A model generated the notes under the pieces. That model did not search any database. It had not been told where the DNA came from and worked only from the letters and a program-made list of their open reading frames with translations. A program made the position numbers and the translations under genes. 64,000 nucleotides of DNA from Tepiditoga spiralis (GTDB lineage Bacteria; Thermotogota; Thermotogae; Petrotogales; Petrotogaceae). The DNA lies in the NCBI RefSeq assembly GCF_014701195.1, contig NZ_AP018712.1, positions 700,501-764,500 of the forward strand, read 5' to 3'. This document shows, piece after piece, positions 41,157 through 57,080 of this stretch. Positions within the stretch are counted from its first letter, which is position 1, and each line of letters begins with the position of its first letter.

Positions 41157-42152
41157 ATGAATATAAATCCATTAGTAGACTTTGCATTTAAAGTAATATT
41201 TGGAAGTGAAAAAAACAAAGACATATTAATAGATTTTTTAAATGCTTTATTAAAAGAAGAAAATAAAAAAATAGAGAGTTTAGATATATTAAATCCATAC
41301 ACAGAAAAAACTGCAATAAATGATAAGTTATCCATATTGGATATAAAAGCAAAATTAGATAATGGAACATATGTAAATATTGAAGTACAATTAATAAATG
41401 AAAAAAATATGATAAAGAGAACTTTATATTATTGGGGAAAAATGTATACAGAACAATTAAAAAAAGGCAAGAGCTATATAAGTTTAGAAAGAACAATAAC
41501 AATAAACATTTTAAACTTTAATTTATTAAAAACAAAAAAATACCATAGCATATATAGATTAAAAGACATAAAAGAAAATACAGAATTAACCGATGTAATG
41601 GAAGTACATTTTGTTGAACTACCAAAAATAGAAACAGAAGAAGCAAACTTAAATGATAAATTAATTGAATGGTTATTGTTCTTAAAAGAACCAGAAAATA
41701 CAAACATGGAGGTGATAACCATGAAGAATAAAGAAATTAAAAAAGCAATGACTGTATTAGAATTTATAAATTCAGATAGAATAGCAAAAGAATTATATGA
41801 AGCAAGAGAAAAGGAATTAATGGATAAGATAGATCAACAACTATATGCAGAAGAAGTTGGAATGAAAAAAGGTTTTCAAAAAGGGTTAAAAAAGGGTATT
41901 GAACAAGGTATTGAACAAGGTATTGAACAAGGTATTGAACAAGGTATTGAACAAGGTATTGGAAAAGGCATTGAGCAAGGCATAAAACAAGAAAAATTAA
42001 TAATTTCAAAAAAACTTTTAAAAAAGAAATTTGGGAATAAAATGGATAACTTAATACCAAAATTAGATACATTATCCATTGAAAAATTAGATGAAATAAT
42101 ATCTAACATTTTTGATTTAACAATTGAAACCTTAAAAAACAAAATTAAATAG
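41157..42152 (+). CDS. Rpn/PDDEXK-family putative transposase-nuclease with GIEQ repeats
   Basis: 331 residues. The N-terminal PDDEXK_2 domain shows NPLVDFAFKVIFGSEKNKDILIDFLNALL, ILDIKAKLDNGTYVNIEVQL (D-x(n)-E-x-Q catalytic pattern), RTLYYWGKMYTEQLKKG and ISLERTITINILNF, as in RpnA-like recombination-promoting nucleases. Around residues 240-278 it has eight tetrapeptide units, five of them GIEQ from identical 12-bp repeats (41895-41954). The C-terminus is helical. Such genes are common and plastic in Thermotogota and related groups. GGGAGGTGG precedes the ATG and a TATAAT lies about 30 bases upstream. Confidence 0.88.
   Translation: MNINPLVDFAFKVIFGSEKNKDILIDFLNALLKEENKKIESLDILNPYTEKTAINDKLSILDIKAKLDNGTYVNIEVQLINEKNMIKRTLYYWGKMYTEQLKKGKSYISLERTITINILNFNLLKTKKYHSIYRLKDIKENTELTDVMEVHFVELPKIETEEANLNDKLIEWLLFLKEPENTNMEVITMKNKEIKKAMTVLEFINSDRIAKELYEAREKELMDKIDQQLYAEEVGMKKGFQKGLKKGIEQGIEQGIEQGIEQGIEQGIGKGIEQGIKQEKLIISKKLLKKKFGNKMDNLIPKLDTLSIEKLDEIISNIFDLTIETLKNKIK
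41895..41990 (+). repeat. 12-bp tandem repeats (GGTATTGAACAA) in the Rpn-type gene
   Basis: Five identical 12-bp units (41895-41954) then three diverged ones. Loss or gain of a unit keeps the frame and changes the protein by four residues. Confidence 0.93.
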
Positions 42153-43607: not shown

Positions 43608-43782
43608 AACTCCACCTCCAAAATGTGATTTGTGTGATAATGTAATTATATTAATTTAACTTTACTTTTACTAATACTTTTATTAAATTTTTCACATAAA
43701 AATATAAAAATTCATTTTTTGGCACGATGTTGCTTAATTATTTTTGATTATACAAAACTTAAAAAAATTAAGGAGGATTCAT

Positions 43783-45018
43783 ATGAATAGAGTTGCAGTA
43801 ACTGGTATAGGAACAATAAATTCAATAGCAAAAAACACAAAAGAATTTTCAGAGAGTTTAAAAAATGATGTTGTTGGCATAGACATGATAACTCAATTTG
43901 ATACATCAGATCACAAAGTTAAAATTGCTAGTGAAATAAAAAATTTTGAACCAAAAAATTATATGGATAAAAAGGTCGCAAAAAGATATGATAGATTTTT
44001 ACAACTTGCATTAGTTGCATCTAAAGAAGCTATTGAAGATGCAAAATTTAAAAATGATGATTGGAAAGAAAATACAGCTGTAATTATAGGTTCTGGAATT
44101 GGTGGATTTAAAACTTTATTTTCGGAATTTGAAAAATTTTCAAAAAAAGGAGCAAAAATGGTTAGCCCATTTTTGATTCCAATGATGATTCCAGACATGG
44201 TTTCTGGTGCTGTAGCAATAGAACACAAATTAAAAGGACCTAACTTTTCAACAGTAAGCGCTTGTGCTTCATCATTAAATGCAATAGCAAATTCAGCAAT
44301 GTTAATAAAACATGGATATATTAATGTAGCTGTAACTGGTGGTTCAGAAGCAGTAATAAGCCCTATGCCAATAGCTGCATTTGCAAATATGCAAGCACTT
44401 TCAACAAGAAATGACGATCCTAAAACTGCGTCAAGACCTTTTGATAAAGATAGAGATGGTTTTGTCATGGGTGAAGGATCTGGAATTTTAATTTTAGAAT
44501 CCGAAGAACATGCAAAAGCACGTGGAGCAAAAATATATGGATATATAGATGGATTTGGTCTAAGTGGTGATGGTTATCATATAAGCGCAACTGATCCAGA
44601 AGGTGCTGGTGCTGTAAAGGCAATGGAAATGGCTTTAAAAACTGCTAATGCTAAACCTGAAGATATAGATATGATAAATTGTCATGGTACAAGTACTCCT
44701 GTTGGTGATGTTTCAGAAATAAAAGCAATAAAACAAGTCTTTGGTTCTCACACAGAAAAATTACTTGTTCAGTCAACAAAAGGACACATAGGACATAATC
44801 TTGGAGCTGCTGGAGCTATAGAATTAATAGCAGTAATACTTCAATCAAATGAAGAATTCATACATGGTATGCCAACTATCCAAAATATAGATGGAAAATT
44901 TGAAGATTTAAATATAACTTTAAAAACAAAAAACGGAAAAGTTAAAAAAATTTTAAAAAATGCATTTGGCTTTGGTGGACATAATGCAAGTATACTCTTT
45001 GTTAAGGAGGATAATTAA
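43783..45018 (+). CDS. fabF: 3-oxoacyl-ACP synthase II
   Basis: 411 residues from the ATG 6 bases after AAGGAGG. The thiolase-fold condensing enzyme keeps its catalytic set: Cys in FSTVSACASSLNA, His in NCHGTSTPVGD and His in QSTKGHIGHNLGAAG, plus FDKDRDGFVMGEGSG and AFGFGGHNASILF. It elongates acyl-ACP with malonyl-ACP. It is the first gene of a six-gene fab operon (to 48968) and overlaps degV (TAATG). Confidence 0.95.
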   Translation: MNRVAVTGIGTINSIAKNTKEFSESLKNDVVGIDMITQFDTSDHKVKIASEIKNFEPKNYMDKKVAKRYDRFLQLALVASKEAIEDAKFKNDDWKENTAVIIGSGIGGFKTLFSEFEKFSKKGAKMVSPFLIPMMIPDMVSGAVAIEHKLKGPNFSTVSACASSLNAIANSAMLIKHGYINVAVTGGSEAVISPMPIAAFANMQALSTRNDDPKTASRPFDKDRDGFVMGEGSGILILESEEHAKARGAKIYGYIDGFGLSGDGYHISATDPEGAGAVKAMEMALKTANAKPEDIDMINCHGTSTPVGDVSEIKAIKQVFGSHTEKLLVQSTKGHIGHNLGAAGAIELIAVILQSNEEFIHGMPTIQNIDGKFEDLNITLKTKNGKVKKILKNAFGFGGHNASILFVKEDN

Positions 45019-45860
45019 TGGGAAGAATTGGAATAGTAGTAGATAACACTTCAAATATTCCAAACAAATTAATAAACGAACTTGGTATAGGCTGTGTTTC
45101 TTTATATGTTATAAGAAATAACAAATATGTTCGGGCATCTGATGTTTGCCAAACAAAATTTTATGATGAAATAAAAAAATCAGTTTATATTCCACACACA
45201 TCTCAACCATCTGTTGCAGACTTTGAATCAATTTATAAAAACATGATAAATAAATATGATGAAATAATATCGTTACATATATCCTCAAAATTGAGTGGAA
45301 CCTACAATTCTGCTACATTGGCTGCAAAACTTATTGACAGTGAAAAAATACATGTAATCGATTCAAAAACAACAAGCTGGGGATTAGGTTACTTAGCAAT
45401 AGAAATTAAAAATATAATAGATAAAAATCAATACTCAACAAAACAGATAATAGAATATGCAAAAAATTTTTATAAAAAAACAAAAGTTTTCTTTAGTGTT
45501 GGAGACTTAAATTATCTTTATAAAGGTGGTAGAATTGGAAAAGCAAAAGCATTAATGGGTAGCCTATTAAATTTAAAACCATTAATAACTCTTGAAAATG
45601 GTGAATTGAGTGCTGTAAGAAGTTTACGTGGAAACAAAAATCTTTTTAATGAAATGATAGAAAGAAGTTTTGATTTTTCTGGTAAATTAAAAAAAATATC
45701 TTTAATTCATACTGGTAATCTAAAATTAGCTGGAGATTTAAAAGATATGCTAATCTCCCGAAAAATAAGTGAAGATATAATAAATATAAGCTATTTAGAC
45801 ATTATAATAGGAACTCACTTAGGTCCAAACTCTGTAGGTATAATAACACATTTTGAATAG
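45018..45860 (+). CDS. DegV-family fatty-acid-binding protein
   Basis: 280 residues. Family marks are IGIVVDNTSNIPN at the N-terminus, TSQPSVADF, the fatty-acid-contacting SSKLSGTYNSATLAAKLI, GDLNYLYKGGRIGKAKALMGSLLNLKP and HLGPNSVGI near the end. DegV/FakB proteins carry a fatty acid, in some bacteria for phosphorylation by FakA. Its place inside the fab operon suggests it handles fatty acid produced by or fed into this pathway. It overlaps the fabF stop by 1 base. Confidence 0.92.
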   Translation: MGRIGIVVDNTSNIPNKLINELGIGCVSLYVIRNNKYVRASDVCQTKFYDEIKKSVYIPHTSQPSVADFESIYKNMINKYDEIISLHISSKLSGTYNSATLAAKLIDSEKIHVIDSKTTSWGLGYLAIEIKNIIDKNQYSTKQIIEYAKNFYKKTKVFFSVGDLNYLYKGGRIGKAKALMGSLLNLKPLITLENGELSAVRSLRGNKNLFNEMIERSFDFSGKLKKISLIHTGNLKLAGDLKDMLISRKISEDIINISYLDIIIGTHLGPNSVGIITHFE

Positions 45861-45872
45861 GAGGAAGTTTAA

Positions 45873-46289
45873 TTGAATATAGACGAAATTATGAAAATTT
45901 TACCTCATAGATACCCTTTTTTACTTGTAGATAAAGTATTATCAATAGAAGAAAATAAAATAATAGCATTAAAAAATGTAACAATAAATGAACCTTTTTT
46001 TCAAGGCCATTTCCCAAAATATCCAATAATGCCTGGAGTTTTACAAATAGAAGGTTTAGCTCAAACCGCTGGACTCTTATTTATGAAAGACTTAAAAGAA
46101 GATGTTGTTCCTTTATTTATAGGTATTGACAAATGTAGATTTAAAAAAGAAGTTAGACCTGGAGATACAATAACTTACGAATTAGAGGTAATGGCTGAAA
46201 AAGCCGGAGTATATAAATTAAAAGGAATTGTAAAATGTGAAGGAAAAGTTTGTACAAAAGCAGAAATAATGGTCGGTATAAAAAAATAA
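45873..46289 (+). CDS. fabZ: 3-hydroxyacyl-ACP dehydratase FabZ
   Basis: 138 residues from a TTG start 8 bases after GGAGG. Hot-dog fold with the catalytic His in GHFPKYPIMPGVLQIEGLAQTAG and HRYPFLLVDKV at the start. It dehydrates 3-hydroxyacyl-ACP. Standard length, no oddities. Fourth-to-last step enzyme of the cycle; FabG and ACP are not in this window. Confidence 0.96.
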   Translation: MNIDEIMKILPHRYPFLLVDKVLSIEENKIIALKNVTINEPFFQGHFPKYPIMPGVLQIEGLAQTAGLLFMKDLKEDVVPLFIGIDKCRFKKEVRPGDTITYELEVMAEKAGVYKLKGIVKCEGKVCTKAEIMVGIKK

Positions 46290-46301: not shown

Positions 46302-47189
46302 ATGAAAGTTCTTCAAATTGGAGCTTATATTCCTGAAAATATCTTAACAAATGAAATGCTTTCTGAGAGATTTAATGTTTCTACAGAATGGATATATAAA
46401 AGAACAAATATAAAAAAAAGATTTTTATCAAATACTTCAATATTAGATATGGGAATAAAAGCTTCTAAAAATTTAGACTTAAATGGTGTAGATGCCGTTT
46501 TATTTGCTTCATCTATTGGTCCGCATTATGTTCCAAATTATGTTAGCGCTTTTAAAGCATTAAATATAAAAACAGCAAAATATGGAATAGATATTTCAAA
46601 TGGATTTGTTGGTTTTATAACAGCAGTACATACAGCAGAAATAATGATGAAAGAAAAATTGGCTAAAAGAGTTTTAATAATCATCTCTGAAAAATTATCA
46701 GATCTTACAGATAAAAATGATATAAATACTGCCATTCTTTTTTCAGATGCAGCAATTGCAATGGTTGTTGAAACAGAAAATTATGATTATGAACATAAAA
46801 CTAATTATGATTATTCACTTTATCCTGCTTTGAATGTAAATAAAGATAAGAAAATTGAAATGAATGGAAAAACTGTATATAGATTTGCAGTTAAGAATAT
46901 GAATGAAATAATAAAAAAATTTTTAACTTCAAAAACAAAGTTAATTGTTCCACATCAAGCAAATGGAAGAATTTTAAACTCTGTATCCAAACAATTTTCA
47001 GGAGTTAAATTTTTGAACTATATAGAAGAAACAGGTAACACTGGTGCGGCAAGTATACCACTTGCACTTTATAAGTACTATGGAAACAAATCATTTTCTT
47101 TAAAAAATCATATTTTAGTATCAGTTGGTGGTGGAATGACTGCCAGTGGAATAACTTGGAGGTGTTTTAATGAAGACTCGAATAACTGA
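46302..47189 (+). CDS. FabH-like (KAS III) protein with catalytic Cys replaced by Phe
   Basis: 295 residues, shorter than the usual 310-330. The KAS III layout is clear: STEWIYKRTNIKKRF, VPHQANGRILNSVSKQF with the catalytic His, and EETGNTGAASIPLALY with the catalytic Asn, ending SVGGGMTASGITWR. However the active-site stretch reads IDISNGFVGFITAV where normal enzymes have DxxAxCxGF, so Phe occupies the Cys position (codon TTT at about 46607). Condensation through a Cys thioester is therefore impossible. Malonyl-ACP decarboxylation, as known for Cys-substituted condensing enzymes, or a structural role is conceivable. The frame is intact and sits in a tight operon, so it is not an obvious pseudogene. 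Confidence 0.88.
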   Translation: MKVLQIGAYIPENILTNEMLSERFNVSTEWIYKRTNIKKRFLSNTSILDMGIKASKNLDLNGVDAVLFASSIGPHYVPNYVSAFKALNIKTAKYGIDISNGFVGFITAVHTAEIMMKEKLAKRVLIIISEKLSDLTDKNDINTAILFSDAAIAMVVETENYDYEHKTNYDYSLYPALNVNKDKKIEMNGKTVYRFAVKNMNEIIKKFLTSKTKLIVPHQANGRILNSVSKQFSGVKFLNYIEETGNTGAASIPLALYKYYGNKSFSLKNHILVSVGGGMTASGITWRCFNEDSNN

Positions 47190-48090
47190 ACTTCTTGATA
47201 TAGAGTACCCTATAATTGAAGGTGGAATGGCATGGGTTGGTACAGGTACTTTAGCTGCTGCTGTTTCAAATGCTGGTGGATTAGGTACTATTGGATCAGG
47301 AAGTATGACTCCTGAAATTTTAAAACAACATATAGATATAGTAAAAAGTCAAACAAACAAACCTTTTGCAGTAAATATAATGTTATTAAATCCATATGTA
47401 GAAGAATTAATAAAATTAGTTTTATCTGAAAAAGTTCCTGTAGTAATTTTTGGAGCAGGAAATCCCGGAAAATATATTAAAAAATTAAAAGAAAATGGAA
47501 TAAAAGTAATGGCTGTTGTTGCCTCAGAAAATCTTGCAATAAGATTAGAAAGAAACGGTGTAGATGCTATAATAGGTGAAGGAATGGAATGTGGTGGTCA
47601 CATCGGAGATGTTTCTACTTTAGTATTAATTTCAAAACTTGCAAAGATGTTAAAAGTACCTCTAATTGCAGCTGGTGGAATTGCAGATTCAACAACAGCA
47701 GCAGCAACATTTATGCTTGGTGCTGAAGGAATACAAATGGGAACGAGATTTATCGCAACACCAGAATGTGAAGCACATCAAACTTATAAAGATTTAGTTG
47801 TAAAATCAGGTATAAGAGATGCAGTAGTTACTGGTTCAAAAATAGGACATCCTGCAAGAGTAATCAAAACAAAGTTTGCAAAAAAAATAAAAGAACTTGA
47901 AATGGCATCTCCTGAAGAAGCTGAAAAAATGATGGTTGGAAGCTTAAGAAAAGCCTTCATAGAAGGAAATAAAGAAGAAGGTTCTTTCATGGCAGGACAA
48001 TCTTGTGGTTTAATTGAATCAATAAAACCTGTTAAAAATATAATAATAGAATTGAATAAAGGATTAGAAGAAAAACTGGAGGTGAAATAA
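47170..48090 (+). CDS. fabK: Enoyl-ACP reductase II FabK
   Basis: 306 residues, FMN-dependent TIM barrel of the nitronate monooxygenase/FabK family. Seen are TELLDIEYPIIEGGMAWVGTG, SNAGGLGTIGSGSM, GAGNPGKYI, GEGMECGGHIGDVSTL (catalytic His), IAAGGIADSTTAAA, LGAEGIQMGTRFIATPEC and AGQSCGLI. It carries out the last reduction of the elongation cycle; no FabI is present here. Its ATG overlaps the fabH-like gene by 20 bases with GGAGGTG inside that gene. Confidence 0.95.
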   Translation: MKTRITELLDIEYPIIEGGMAWVGTGTLAAAVSNAGGLGTIGSGSMTPEILKQHIDIVKSQTNKPFAVNIMLLNPYVEELIKLVLSEKVPVVIFGAGNPGKYIKKLKENGIKVMAVVASENLAIRLERNGVDAIIGEGMECGGHIGDVSTLVLISKLAKMLKVPLIAAGGIADSTTAAATFMLGAEGIQMGTRFIATPECEAHQTYKDLVVKSGIRDAVVTGSKIGHPARVIKTKFAKKIKELEMASPEEAEKMMVGSLRKAFIEGNKEEGSFMAGQSCGLIESIKPVKNIIIELNKGLEEKLEVK

Positions 48091-48968
48091 TGAAAGCATT
48101 TGTTTTTCCTGGTCAAGGTTCACAAACTCTTGGAATGGGTAGTGAAATTCTAAAAGAAAATCCAGAATACAAAATTTATTTAAAAAAAGCAAATGATACT
48201 TTGGAATATGATCTTGAAAGTATAATTTTTGGAGATGATTTAGAAAAATTAACTTTAACACAAAATGCTCAACCAGCATTACTTACAATTGGTTATATAT
48301 ACCATAGATACTTAATAGAAAAAAAAGAAATCTTACCAGATGTTGTTGCTGGTCATTCACTTGGGGAATGGACTGCTTTAGTTGCTTCTGGAGTTTTAAA
48401 CTTTGAAGATGCAGTAAGATTAGTACATTTAAGAGGACTATATATGAGTCAAGCTTGTCCTCCTGGTCAAGGAACAATGGCTGCAATTCTTGGTATGAAT
48501 CCAGAAAAAATAAAAGATCTTTTAAGAGGTTTTGAAAATGTTGTTCCAGCAAACTTCAATTCTTCTGTACAAACTGTAATAAGTGGAGAAACAAAAGAAG
48601 TTTTAGAAGCTATGACTTTTTTAAAAGAAAATGGTGCAAAAAAAGTAGTTCAATTGAAAGTTAGTGGACCTTTCCACTCTCCATTAATATCAAATGCTGC
48701 TGAAAAATTACAAATTGAAGTTGATAAAGTTGAATTTAAAACACCATCTATACCAATAGTTCAAAATGTTACTGCTAAATATGAAAATGATCCAAATATA
48801 ATAAAAGAAAATATTATAAAGCAAATAACTTCTCCAGTTAGATGGGTAGATTCAGTTATAAACATGAACAACAATGGAGTTGATAAATTCATAGAAGCTG
48901 GCCCTGGAAAAGTATTAACTGGTCTCATAAAAAGAATAGTTAAAGGTGTAGAGTTAATAAACATATAA
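48090..48968 (+). CDS. fabD: Malonyl-CoA:ACP transacylase FabD
   Basis: 292 residues. FPGQGSQTLGMGSE, catalytic Ser in GHSLGEWTAL, Arg in HLRGLYMSQA, and catalytic His in SGPFHSPLI, with PIVQNVTAKY and EAGPGKVLTGLIKR near the end. It loads malonyl groups on ACP for FabF. It overlaps the fabK stop by 1 base (TAATG) and is followed by the operon terminator. Confidence 0.96.
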   Translation: MKAFVFPGQGSQTLGMGSEILKENPEYKIYLKKANDTLEYDLESIIFGDDLEKLTLTQNAQPALLTIGYIYHRYLIEKKEILPDVVAGHSLGEWTALVASGVLNFEDAVRLVHLRGLYMSQACPPGQGTMAAILGMNPEKIKDLLRGFENVVPANFNSSVQTVISGETKEVLEAMTFLKENGAKKVVQLKVSGPFHSPLISNAAEKLQIEVDKVEFKTPSIPIVQNVTAKYENDPNIIKENIIKQITSPVRWVDSVINMNNNGVDKFIEAGPGKVLTGLIKRIVKGVELINI

Positions 48969-50705: not shown

Positions 50706-50728
50706 AACGAGCTAAGCTCGTTTTATTT
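50701..50728. terminator. Bidirectional terminator
   Basis: AATAAAACGAGC-TAA-GCTCGTTTTATT between the convergent OsmC gene and FGE-like pseudogene. Confidence 0.85.
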
Positions 50729-52329
50729 TTTAGTTCTAACTATTCTAAATCCTAAATTAGGGCCATAATCTGTAATTGAAATAGATTTTCTTCCAGTAAC
50801 TTGTGCATCTCCTGCACCAAAGTTATAGCTTCCACCACGTCTTATACGATTTCCAGATGTAGAGTCTATATTATAAGGATTTATTTCTAATGAACTACTA
50901 TAAGAACCATAATAATCACTCACTAATTCCCAAACATTTCCACTCATATCGTATATCCCAAAATTATTAGGCATTTTTTGACCAACTTCATGAGTTTTTG
51001 AATCTGAATTTCCAGAATACCAAGCTACATCATCTATATTATCACTTCCAGAATAAAGATAATTTTCATTTCCTTTTGCAGCATATTCCCATTCTGCTTC
51101 CGTTGGTAATCTATAACCATATGTTTTTGCTAGATCAGTAGTAATACTTCCTTTTTCATCTATAAAATTACCCAAGCTATCATAAGATTTTGGAAGCCCT
51201 TCTTTATCTGAAAGCCAATTACAATATTCATTTGCATCAGTCCAAGAAATATATATTACAGGATAATTATTTCTATTTCCACTATATTGTGGTTTATTTT
51301 TACCTGTGTCTTCACAAAATTTATCATATTCATTGAAAGTTGTTTCATATCTCCCAATATAAAAGTCATAATTTAAAATTACTGTATGAATTGGTTTAGA
51401 AGTTTCACCATTTCCCATTTCAAATGAACCATTTTTTATTTCTACCATACTATTTTTTGTAGTAGTAGGTTCTTCTGATTCTAAAACATTTAAAACAATT
51501 GTTTTTGATGTTGTAATAATTCCATCACTTACATTAAAGGTTATACTATATTGTCCTGATTGTGTATAATATGGTTTCCAAGTGAATTTATGTGTTTCTT
51601 CTCCAAAATCAGCTCCTACTGGAAGATTTTCTGCCCAATAGGTTAGTATATCATCATCTTGGTCTGTAGCACTTATTGTAAATGTCAAAATGTTTCCTTC
51701 ATTAATTGTTGTATTTATTATTTCATCAATTACTGGTGAATTATCTACTTCTTCAACTACTATCTTTACTTCTTTGCTTACTTCTGTTATTCCATCTGTT
51801 ACCTTGAATATTACATTGTATTCTCCTGCTTGTTCATATGTTGGTATCCATTCAAACTTTCTGGTAATAGAATTAAATGTTGCACCTTCAGGAAGGTTTT
51901 TTGCCGTTACTTTTAAACTATCTCCATCAACATCCGTAGCATTTACTGTAAATTCTATTTTTTCTCCTTCTTTTATTACTATATCTTTTATTTCTTCTAT
52001 TTGTGGTGGGTTATCTACTTCTTTAACTATTATTTTCACATTTTGATAAGTTGTATTAATCCCATCTGTTACACTAAACTTCACATCATACTTTCCACTT
52101 TGAGTATAATCTGGTTTCCATTGAAAATAGCTCCTTTAGGAGTATTTTCAACATTATATATTAAATTATCTTTTTCAATACTTTTTACTTTAACTATAAA
52201 ATTTAATTCTTCATTTTCTTTTATGATTTTGTCTCCTATTTTCTCAATTGCAGGTGGTGGTGTTTTAATCTCTGTACAACCTACAAAAAGAATTAAAATT
52301 AAAATCATTAGAAATAAAAACTTATTCAC
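50723..52329 (-). pseudogene. FGE-like/Ig-like lipoprotein gene broken by a frameshift
   Basis: The first part (52329 down to about 52130) codes a lipoprotein signal (LILFVGCTE) and most of a first Ig-like repeat. The frame shifts near 52125-52135: the DNA reads TTTTCAATGGAAACC where the repeat logic (FNGN-KF-QWKP) predicts two successive CAATGGAAA stretches. The remaining 450 codons (from about 52084) hold two more Ig-like repeats (PTYEQAGEYNVIFKVTDG) and a FGE-like domain (YRLPTEAEWEYAAKG, GNVWELVSDYY) ending RRGGSYNFGAGDAQ, without catalytic cysteines. It is a smaller relative of the 1254-residue lipoprotein, lacking the propeller. Confidence 0.8.
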
Positions 52330-56868: not shown

Positions 56869-56874
56869 AGTAAA

Positions 56875-57040
56875 TAACCCACGGAATTGTTGGTTTTTTT
56901 ATTAAAAGGGAAAATGGTGAAACTCCATTACGGCCCCGCCACCGTAACCGAGAACGAACACTACAAAATGCCACTGATAAAATCGGGAAGGCGTAGTTAT
57001 TAGAATGATCCGGAAGTCGGGAGACCTGCCTTCAATTCTA
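56875..57040 (+). ncRNA. Cobalamin (B12) riboswitch
   Basis: The aptamer core is plain: GGGAAAATGGTGAAACTCC, ACGGCCCCGCCACCGTAA, TGCCACTGATAAAATCGGGAAGG and the B12 box region GGAAGTCGGGAGACCTGCC. A terminator hairpin follows at 57046-57080, then the first gene at 57102, so B12 binding probably stops transcription of the operon. Confidence 0.93.
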
Positions 57041-57045
57041 AGATA

Positions 57046-57080
57046 TTCTCACTCTCGCGGGAGAGGTGAGAAGGGTTTTT
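57046..57080 (+). terminator. Riboswitch expression-platform terminator
   Basis: TTCTCACTCTC-GCGG-GAGAGGTGAGAA followed by GGGTTTTT. It ends 22 bases before the sucC-like start. Confidence 0.8.

Follow-up and report, generated by a model that had tools for sequence, protein, structure and literature searches.

FabH is generally seen as the enzyme that initiates fatty-acid synthesis in bacteria, and it is regarded as a drug target. The KSQ domains and the chain-length factor (KS-beta) of polyketide synthases are malonyl decarboxylases that supply the acetyl primer. In Escherichia coli FabH, a ketoacyl-acyl carrier protein (ACP) synthase III (KAS III), Cys112 accepts the acetyl group, and His244 and Asn274 serve the decarboxylation of malonyl-ACP (PMC4807248). 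Acetyl-ACP from decarboxylation is a proven primer for FabB and FabF (PMC8666670). Here we describe a FabH-like protein with Phe at the position of the catalytic Cys. It is encoded at 46302–47189 (+ strand) of a 64,000-nt window (positions 700,501 to 764,500 of NZ_AP018712.1) in the complete, 2,502,404-bp chromosome of the deep-sea bacterium Tepiditoga spiralis (Petrotogaceae).

The initial annotation had noted the Phe, the retained His and Asn, the intact reading frame and the overlap with fabK in a compact operon, and all of these held. The frame ran from ATG to TGA and encoded 295 residues, about 20 fewer than classical FabH. Both Pfam halves of the fold, ACP_syn_III (PF08545) and ACP_syn_III_C (PF08541), scored above cut-off. 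These two families were its only Pfam matches, and no YiiD_C hot-dog domain was present. A PDB search matched FabHs, the best being 2ebd (E 8e-35). The AlphaFold2 model (pLDDT 92.6, pTM 0.91) gave only FabHs as top PDB matches in Foldseek, with a TM-score of 0.88 to 2ebd. On the other hand, the protein fell below the NCBIfam FabH cut-offs (NF006829, 182.7 of 249 bits; TIGR00747, 153.3 of 292.1 bits).

In gap-free alignments with the PDB FabHs and E. coli FabH, the stretch DISNGFVGF lay on DISAACSGF and DVAAACAGF. This placed Phe102 (codon TTT, 46605–46607, +) at the position of Cys112, at the start of the nucleophile-carrying helix in the model. His218 (PHQAN; 46953–46955, +) aligned with His244, and Asn246 (GNTGAASIP; 47037–47039, +) with Asn274, the two residues that serve decarboxylation. 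The protein thus has the catalytic His and Asn of a KAS III and lacks its nucleophilic Cys, with no conserved Cys elsewhere. Its sole Cys, C288 near the C-terminus, was absent from the relatives in family f11, one of which (L049) had no Cys in its whole sequence. A shifted alignment that would supply a catalytic Cys was therefore rejected.

The Phe was conserved. A search of 103 Thermotogota genomes with a profile of the Phe-type protein (A1) gave three clear groups: 12 genomes at 370–520 bits, 18 at 106–215 bits, and the remainder below 43 bits. The 12 Phe-type carriers spanned five genera and three families. They were Tepiditoga, seven members of one sister genus (g6, 57–60% identity), one member of family f7 (47%) and three of family f11 (30–33%). 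In each of the 12, the Cys position was occupied by Phe, preceded by Gly. The other 18 FabHs, one of them a fragment, all had the active-site Cys. No genome carried both types, and no canonical Cys-type fabH was found in the Tepiditoga genome or the other Phe-type genomes.

Outside Thermotogota, Cys, His and Asn were present in 82 of 82 FabH loci among the matches listed in scans of genome and viral contigs. These loci were chosen by the patterns PHQAN and GNTG[AS]ASIP, so rarer Cys-less FabHs may occur elsewhere. In a plasmid search all matches were below 60% identity, the five listed being at 30–33%. The retention of Phe (12/12 against Cys in 82/82) is far beyond chance.

The ratio of nonsynonymous to synonymous substitution (dN/dS) was 0.06–0.18 within g6, and about 0.3, near saturation, between Tepiditoga and g6. 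Both Phe codons were in use across the 12 genes. In-frame TAG stops in the g6 orthologues were merely their natural ends, the Tepiditoga protein being two residues longer. The annotation had named a Cys in close relatives together with decay of the Tepiditoga gene as refuting signs, and neither was seen. Because Phe is conserved, dN/dS is low and both Phe codons are in use, the Phe-type FabH is a maintained protein and no relic.

Few columns were conserved in the Phe-type yet rare among 89 Cys-type sequences: C112F, F304V, A90Y, V78F, S276G and F308M. Phe304, which corresponds to the gatekeeper Phe400 of FabF, is Val in all 12 (Val275 in Tepiditoga; 47124–47126, +). The bulk lost there may offset the bulk gained at 112. 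Phe87, which in FabH closes the acyl pocket of the other subunit, was replaced by Val, Ile or Tyr. Arg151 was Ile, Val or Pro in 12 of 12 Phe-types, compared with Arg in 85 of 89 Cys-types; in FabH this residue stacks on the adenine of coenzyme A (CoA) (PMC4606726). On the other hand, W32, R36, M207, G209, H244, N247 and N274 were kept, as were basic residues at 214 (K/R) and 249 (R/K). The His, the Asn, Gln219, Asn221 and the GNTG loop were invariant across the Phe-types. Substrate-site residues listed in the literature were invariant at 7 of 12 positions, compared with 44 of 295 over the whole protein (p about 5e-4). This pattern would suit an enzyme that still accepts a pantetheine thioester presented by ACP and acts on the malonyl group of that thioester, but that binds acetyl-CoA poorly and stores no acetyl group.

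The Phe-type protein thus resembles classical FabH (E. coli, Aquifex 2ebd, Bacillus subtilis FabHA) in fold, His–Asn pair, pantetheine site, basic residues and fab-operon position, and differs from it at 112, 304, 87 and 151. With KSQ and KS-beta it shares a ketosynthase fold, a replaced nucleophilic Cys and retained decarboxylation residues. Theirs, however, is a Gln in a KAS I/II-type (His–His) enzyme of polyketide synthesis, while here it is Phe in 12 of 12, in a KAS III (His–Asn) of primary fatty-acid synthesis. By fold and position the protein is a KAS III without the nucleophile of that family, and it most likely acts like a decarboxylating ketosynthase.

The gene lies in a tight run, fabF-degV-fabZ-fabH-fabK-fabD, all on the + strand, with Shine–Dalgarno-like sequences before every gene (GCAGGTG before fabH). 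fabF (KAS II; 43783–45018) encodes the sole FabF of the genome and has its active-site Cys (VSACASS); its ATG at 43783, behind GGAGG, was preferred to a TTG at 43744. It is followed by a gene for a DegV/FakB-like fatty-acid-binding protein (45018–45860) and by fabZ (45873–46289), which ends 12 bp before the Phe-type fabH. fabK (47170–48090) overlaps the latter by 20 bp (47170–47189). fabD (48090–48968) encodes the malonyl-CoA:ACP transacylase, the maker of malonyl-ACP. In Petrotogaceae the degV/FakB-like gene separates fabF from fabZ, and in family f11 it is a neighbor of fabF.

If the only function lost is that of Cys112, a malonyl-ACP decarboxylase would remain. The annotation had proposed this activity, and we consider it plausible and the best available interpretation, in keeping with the residue pattern. 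With Phe for Cys, the acetyl-enzyme could no longer form. Malonyl-ACP from FabD would bind the Phe-type enzyme, and the His218/Asn246 pair would decarboxylate its malonyl group. The enolate would then be protonated instead of condensed, and acetyl-ACP released. The single FabF would condense this with malonyl-ACP, and straight even-chain fatty acids would begin. We give this account, in which we infer the substrate, the activity and the role in initiation, a slightly better than even chance. MadA/MadB (YiiD_C, PF09500) perform the same proposed reaction, from malonyl-ACP to acetyl-ACP for FabB/FabF (PMC8666670), with a hot-dog fold unrelated to KAS III. None of the 103 Thermotogota genomes searched had a MadB. 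Nearly all of the fatty acids in T. spiralis are straight and even-chain, with C16:0 at 52% (PMC7734402), as expected from an acetyl primer.

Several points weigh against this proposal. Among known decarboxylating ketosynthases, natural ones bear Gln at the Cys site and engineered ones bear small residues. The bulkier Phe might obstruct the malonyl group, and the activity of the enzyme is one deduced from sequence. T. spiralis requires yeast extract for growth (PMC7734402), and the C16:0 profile may partly stem from its lipids. FabK and FabZ evolve somewhat more slowly than the Phe-type protein, whose rate is similar to that of FabD. In sister genera of this family the run is fabF-degV-fabZ-fabK-fabD, from which fabH is cleanly missing, so the step would be dispensable or done by FabF alone. 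Finally, no AccD above cut-off was found in the 103 genomes, which leaves the source of malonyl-CoA in the phylum uncertain. Instead, nearly every Thermotogota genome had one carboxyltransferase-like frame of about 520 residues; in Tepiditoga the locus is C1:1414885-1415412.

A second, Cys-bearing fabH was another point raised in the annotation. No canonical one was found, as described above, but a Cys-bearing KAS III-like paralogue was present at C1:1810739-1811737, about 1.06 Mb from the Phe-type gene and outside the fab operon. It belongs to the PRK06840 family (458.9 bits, cut-off 315), for which the Phe-type protein scored only 35.8 bits. It has GHMG in place of the FabH GNTG, with His for Asn274. 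Its cluster (C1 about 1810700-1815040; also L081:7713-12038) contains a short-chain dehydrogenase/reductase, a CoA-transferase resembling acetyl-CoA hydrolase/transferase and a thiolase, followed by an ATP-binding cassette transporter of the branched-chain (amino-acid) type. From these neighbors the paralogue looks like part of acyl-CoA metabolism. Its family, the CoA-transferase/thiolase cluster and the His for Asn make it an unlikely substitute for FabH. A further class of Thermotogota KAS III-like proteins (L061-L074; families f3, f9, f7 and f11) had the Cys, but its catalytic His was replaced by Gln (FFTQVRKK) and its Asn by Tyr (YGYTGSA).

Other explanations were considered. A KAS III kept for binding only, as a malonyl- or acyl-ACP-binding scaffold or a regulator of FabF/FabK flux, would account for the loss of the nucleophile and of the pocket residues Phe87 and Phe304, and for relatives that live without the gene. 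However, binding alone would hardly require a His/Asn pair and loops that are invariant at about 30% identity, and the purifying selection is strong. We regard such a non-catalytic role as unlikely, although it deserves consideration. An enzyme that still condenses, by joining acetyl-CoA or an acyl-ACP to malonyl-ACP non-covalently or through another nucleophile, is highly doubtful. The overall fold and the pantetheine tunnel are retained, but no Cys is conserved anywhere, no Ser or Thr is at the site, the CoA-stacking Arg151 is lost, and Phe87 and Phe304 of the acyl pocket are altered.

The protein might instead be one half of a heterodimer, a structural support for a Cys-bearing partner. PqsBC includes a Cys-less subunit of KAS III fold, PqsB (PMC4807248), and the PRK06840 paralogue would offer a partner in the same genome. 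PqsB, however, lacks all three catalytic residues and pairs with PqsC, while the Phe-type keeps two of them and has no conserved KAS III partner. One Phe-type genome (G100, 85% complete) yielded no further KAS III whatsoever, and another (G042) yielded no PRK06840. The paralogue, though of the same superfamily, is also distant and in a different kind of cluster. This arrangement is quite improbable. A decaying pseudogene or a sequencing error, suggested by the lost catalytic residue and the scores under the FabH cut-offs, is scarcely conceivable. The gene was intact in 12 genomes with dN/dS well below 1, and the Phe and the operon context were conserved; these data refuted it.

In a tree, a branch (94/78, not starred) set the 12 Phe-types apart from the rest, and the tree carried a warning of long branches. 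When either Phe-type subset was omitted, each remaining subset formed its own clade. The shared six-residue signature favors a single origin of the Phe-type, and two convergent origins are a possible alternative. In Kosmotogales the Cys-type FabH is encoded among fab genes for which lateral acquisition has been reported (Kole_0969; PMC5674127).

About 73 of the 103 genomes had no fab-operon FabH of either type. Thermotoga maritima was among them; in the control set its FabF was detected and a KAS III was not. Genus g35 lacked KAS III altogether. Nearly all the genomes had one FabF; family f4 genomes G039, G045 and G046, unlike most of the phylum, had two FabF and two FabK each. Fab operons without FabH or MadB include L133, L138, L139 and L150. 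In Thermotogota that lack FabH, a gene of 167–174 codons placed between fabK and fabD was suspected to encode a MadB-like decarboxylase and proved to encode BioY, a biotin transporter component. The BioY gene lies inside the fab operon of several lineages (L139:5684-6193, L140:4567-5091, L150:6856-7359 and L149:6821-7360).

FabF presumably self-starts in genomes without both fabH types and MadB. Side reactions of FabF have been argued as an initiation route for Enterococcus (PMC13372179), and by analogy they would be the obvious candidates in FabH-less Thermotogota. The idea in the annotation that Tepiditoga starts fatty acids without a classical KAS III therefore agrees with the lack of a canonical fabH, but it describes nothing peculiar to this organism. 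Since most Thermotogota have neither fabH type nor MadB, the Phe enzyme is one solution and no general requirement. For the same reason it may raise acetyl-ACP rather than supply it alone.

Other features of the window were a PD-(D/E)XK nuclease family transposase (PDDEXK_2) with an EQGI repeat at 41157–42152 (+), upstream of the fab run, and a gene at 50723–52084 (−) for Ig-like repeats fused to an FGE-sulfatase (formylglycine-generating-enzyme-like) domain. A cobalamin riboswitch (109.8 bits) was at 56874–57047 (+).

We rate it an even chance that the Phe-type FabH is an undescribed type of malonyl-ACP decarboxylase, a KAS III converted by the Cys-to-Phe and Phe-to-Val changes, which some Thermotogota would use together with their single FabF. 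A KAS III that is conserved and has the decarboxylating residues and no nucleophile, in the fab operon of organisms lacking any other FabH as well as MadB, makes a named and readily testable candidate. With Cys-type, Phe-type and fabH-less lineages side by side, the Thermotogota offer a ready comparison.
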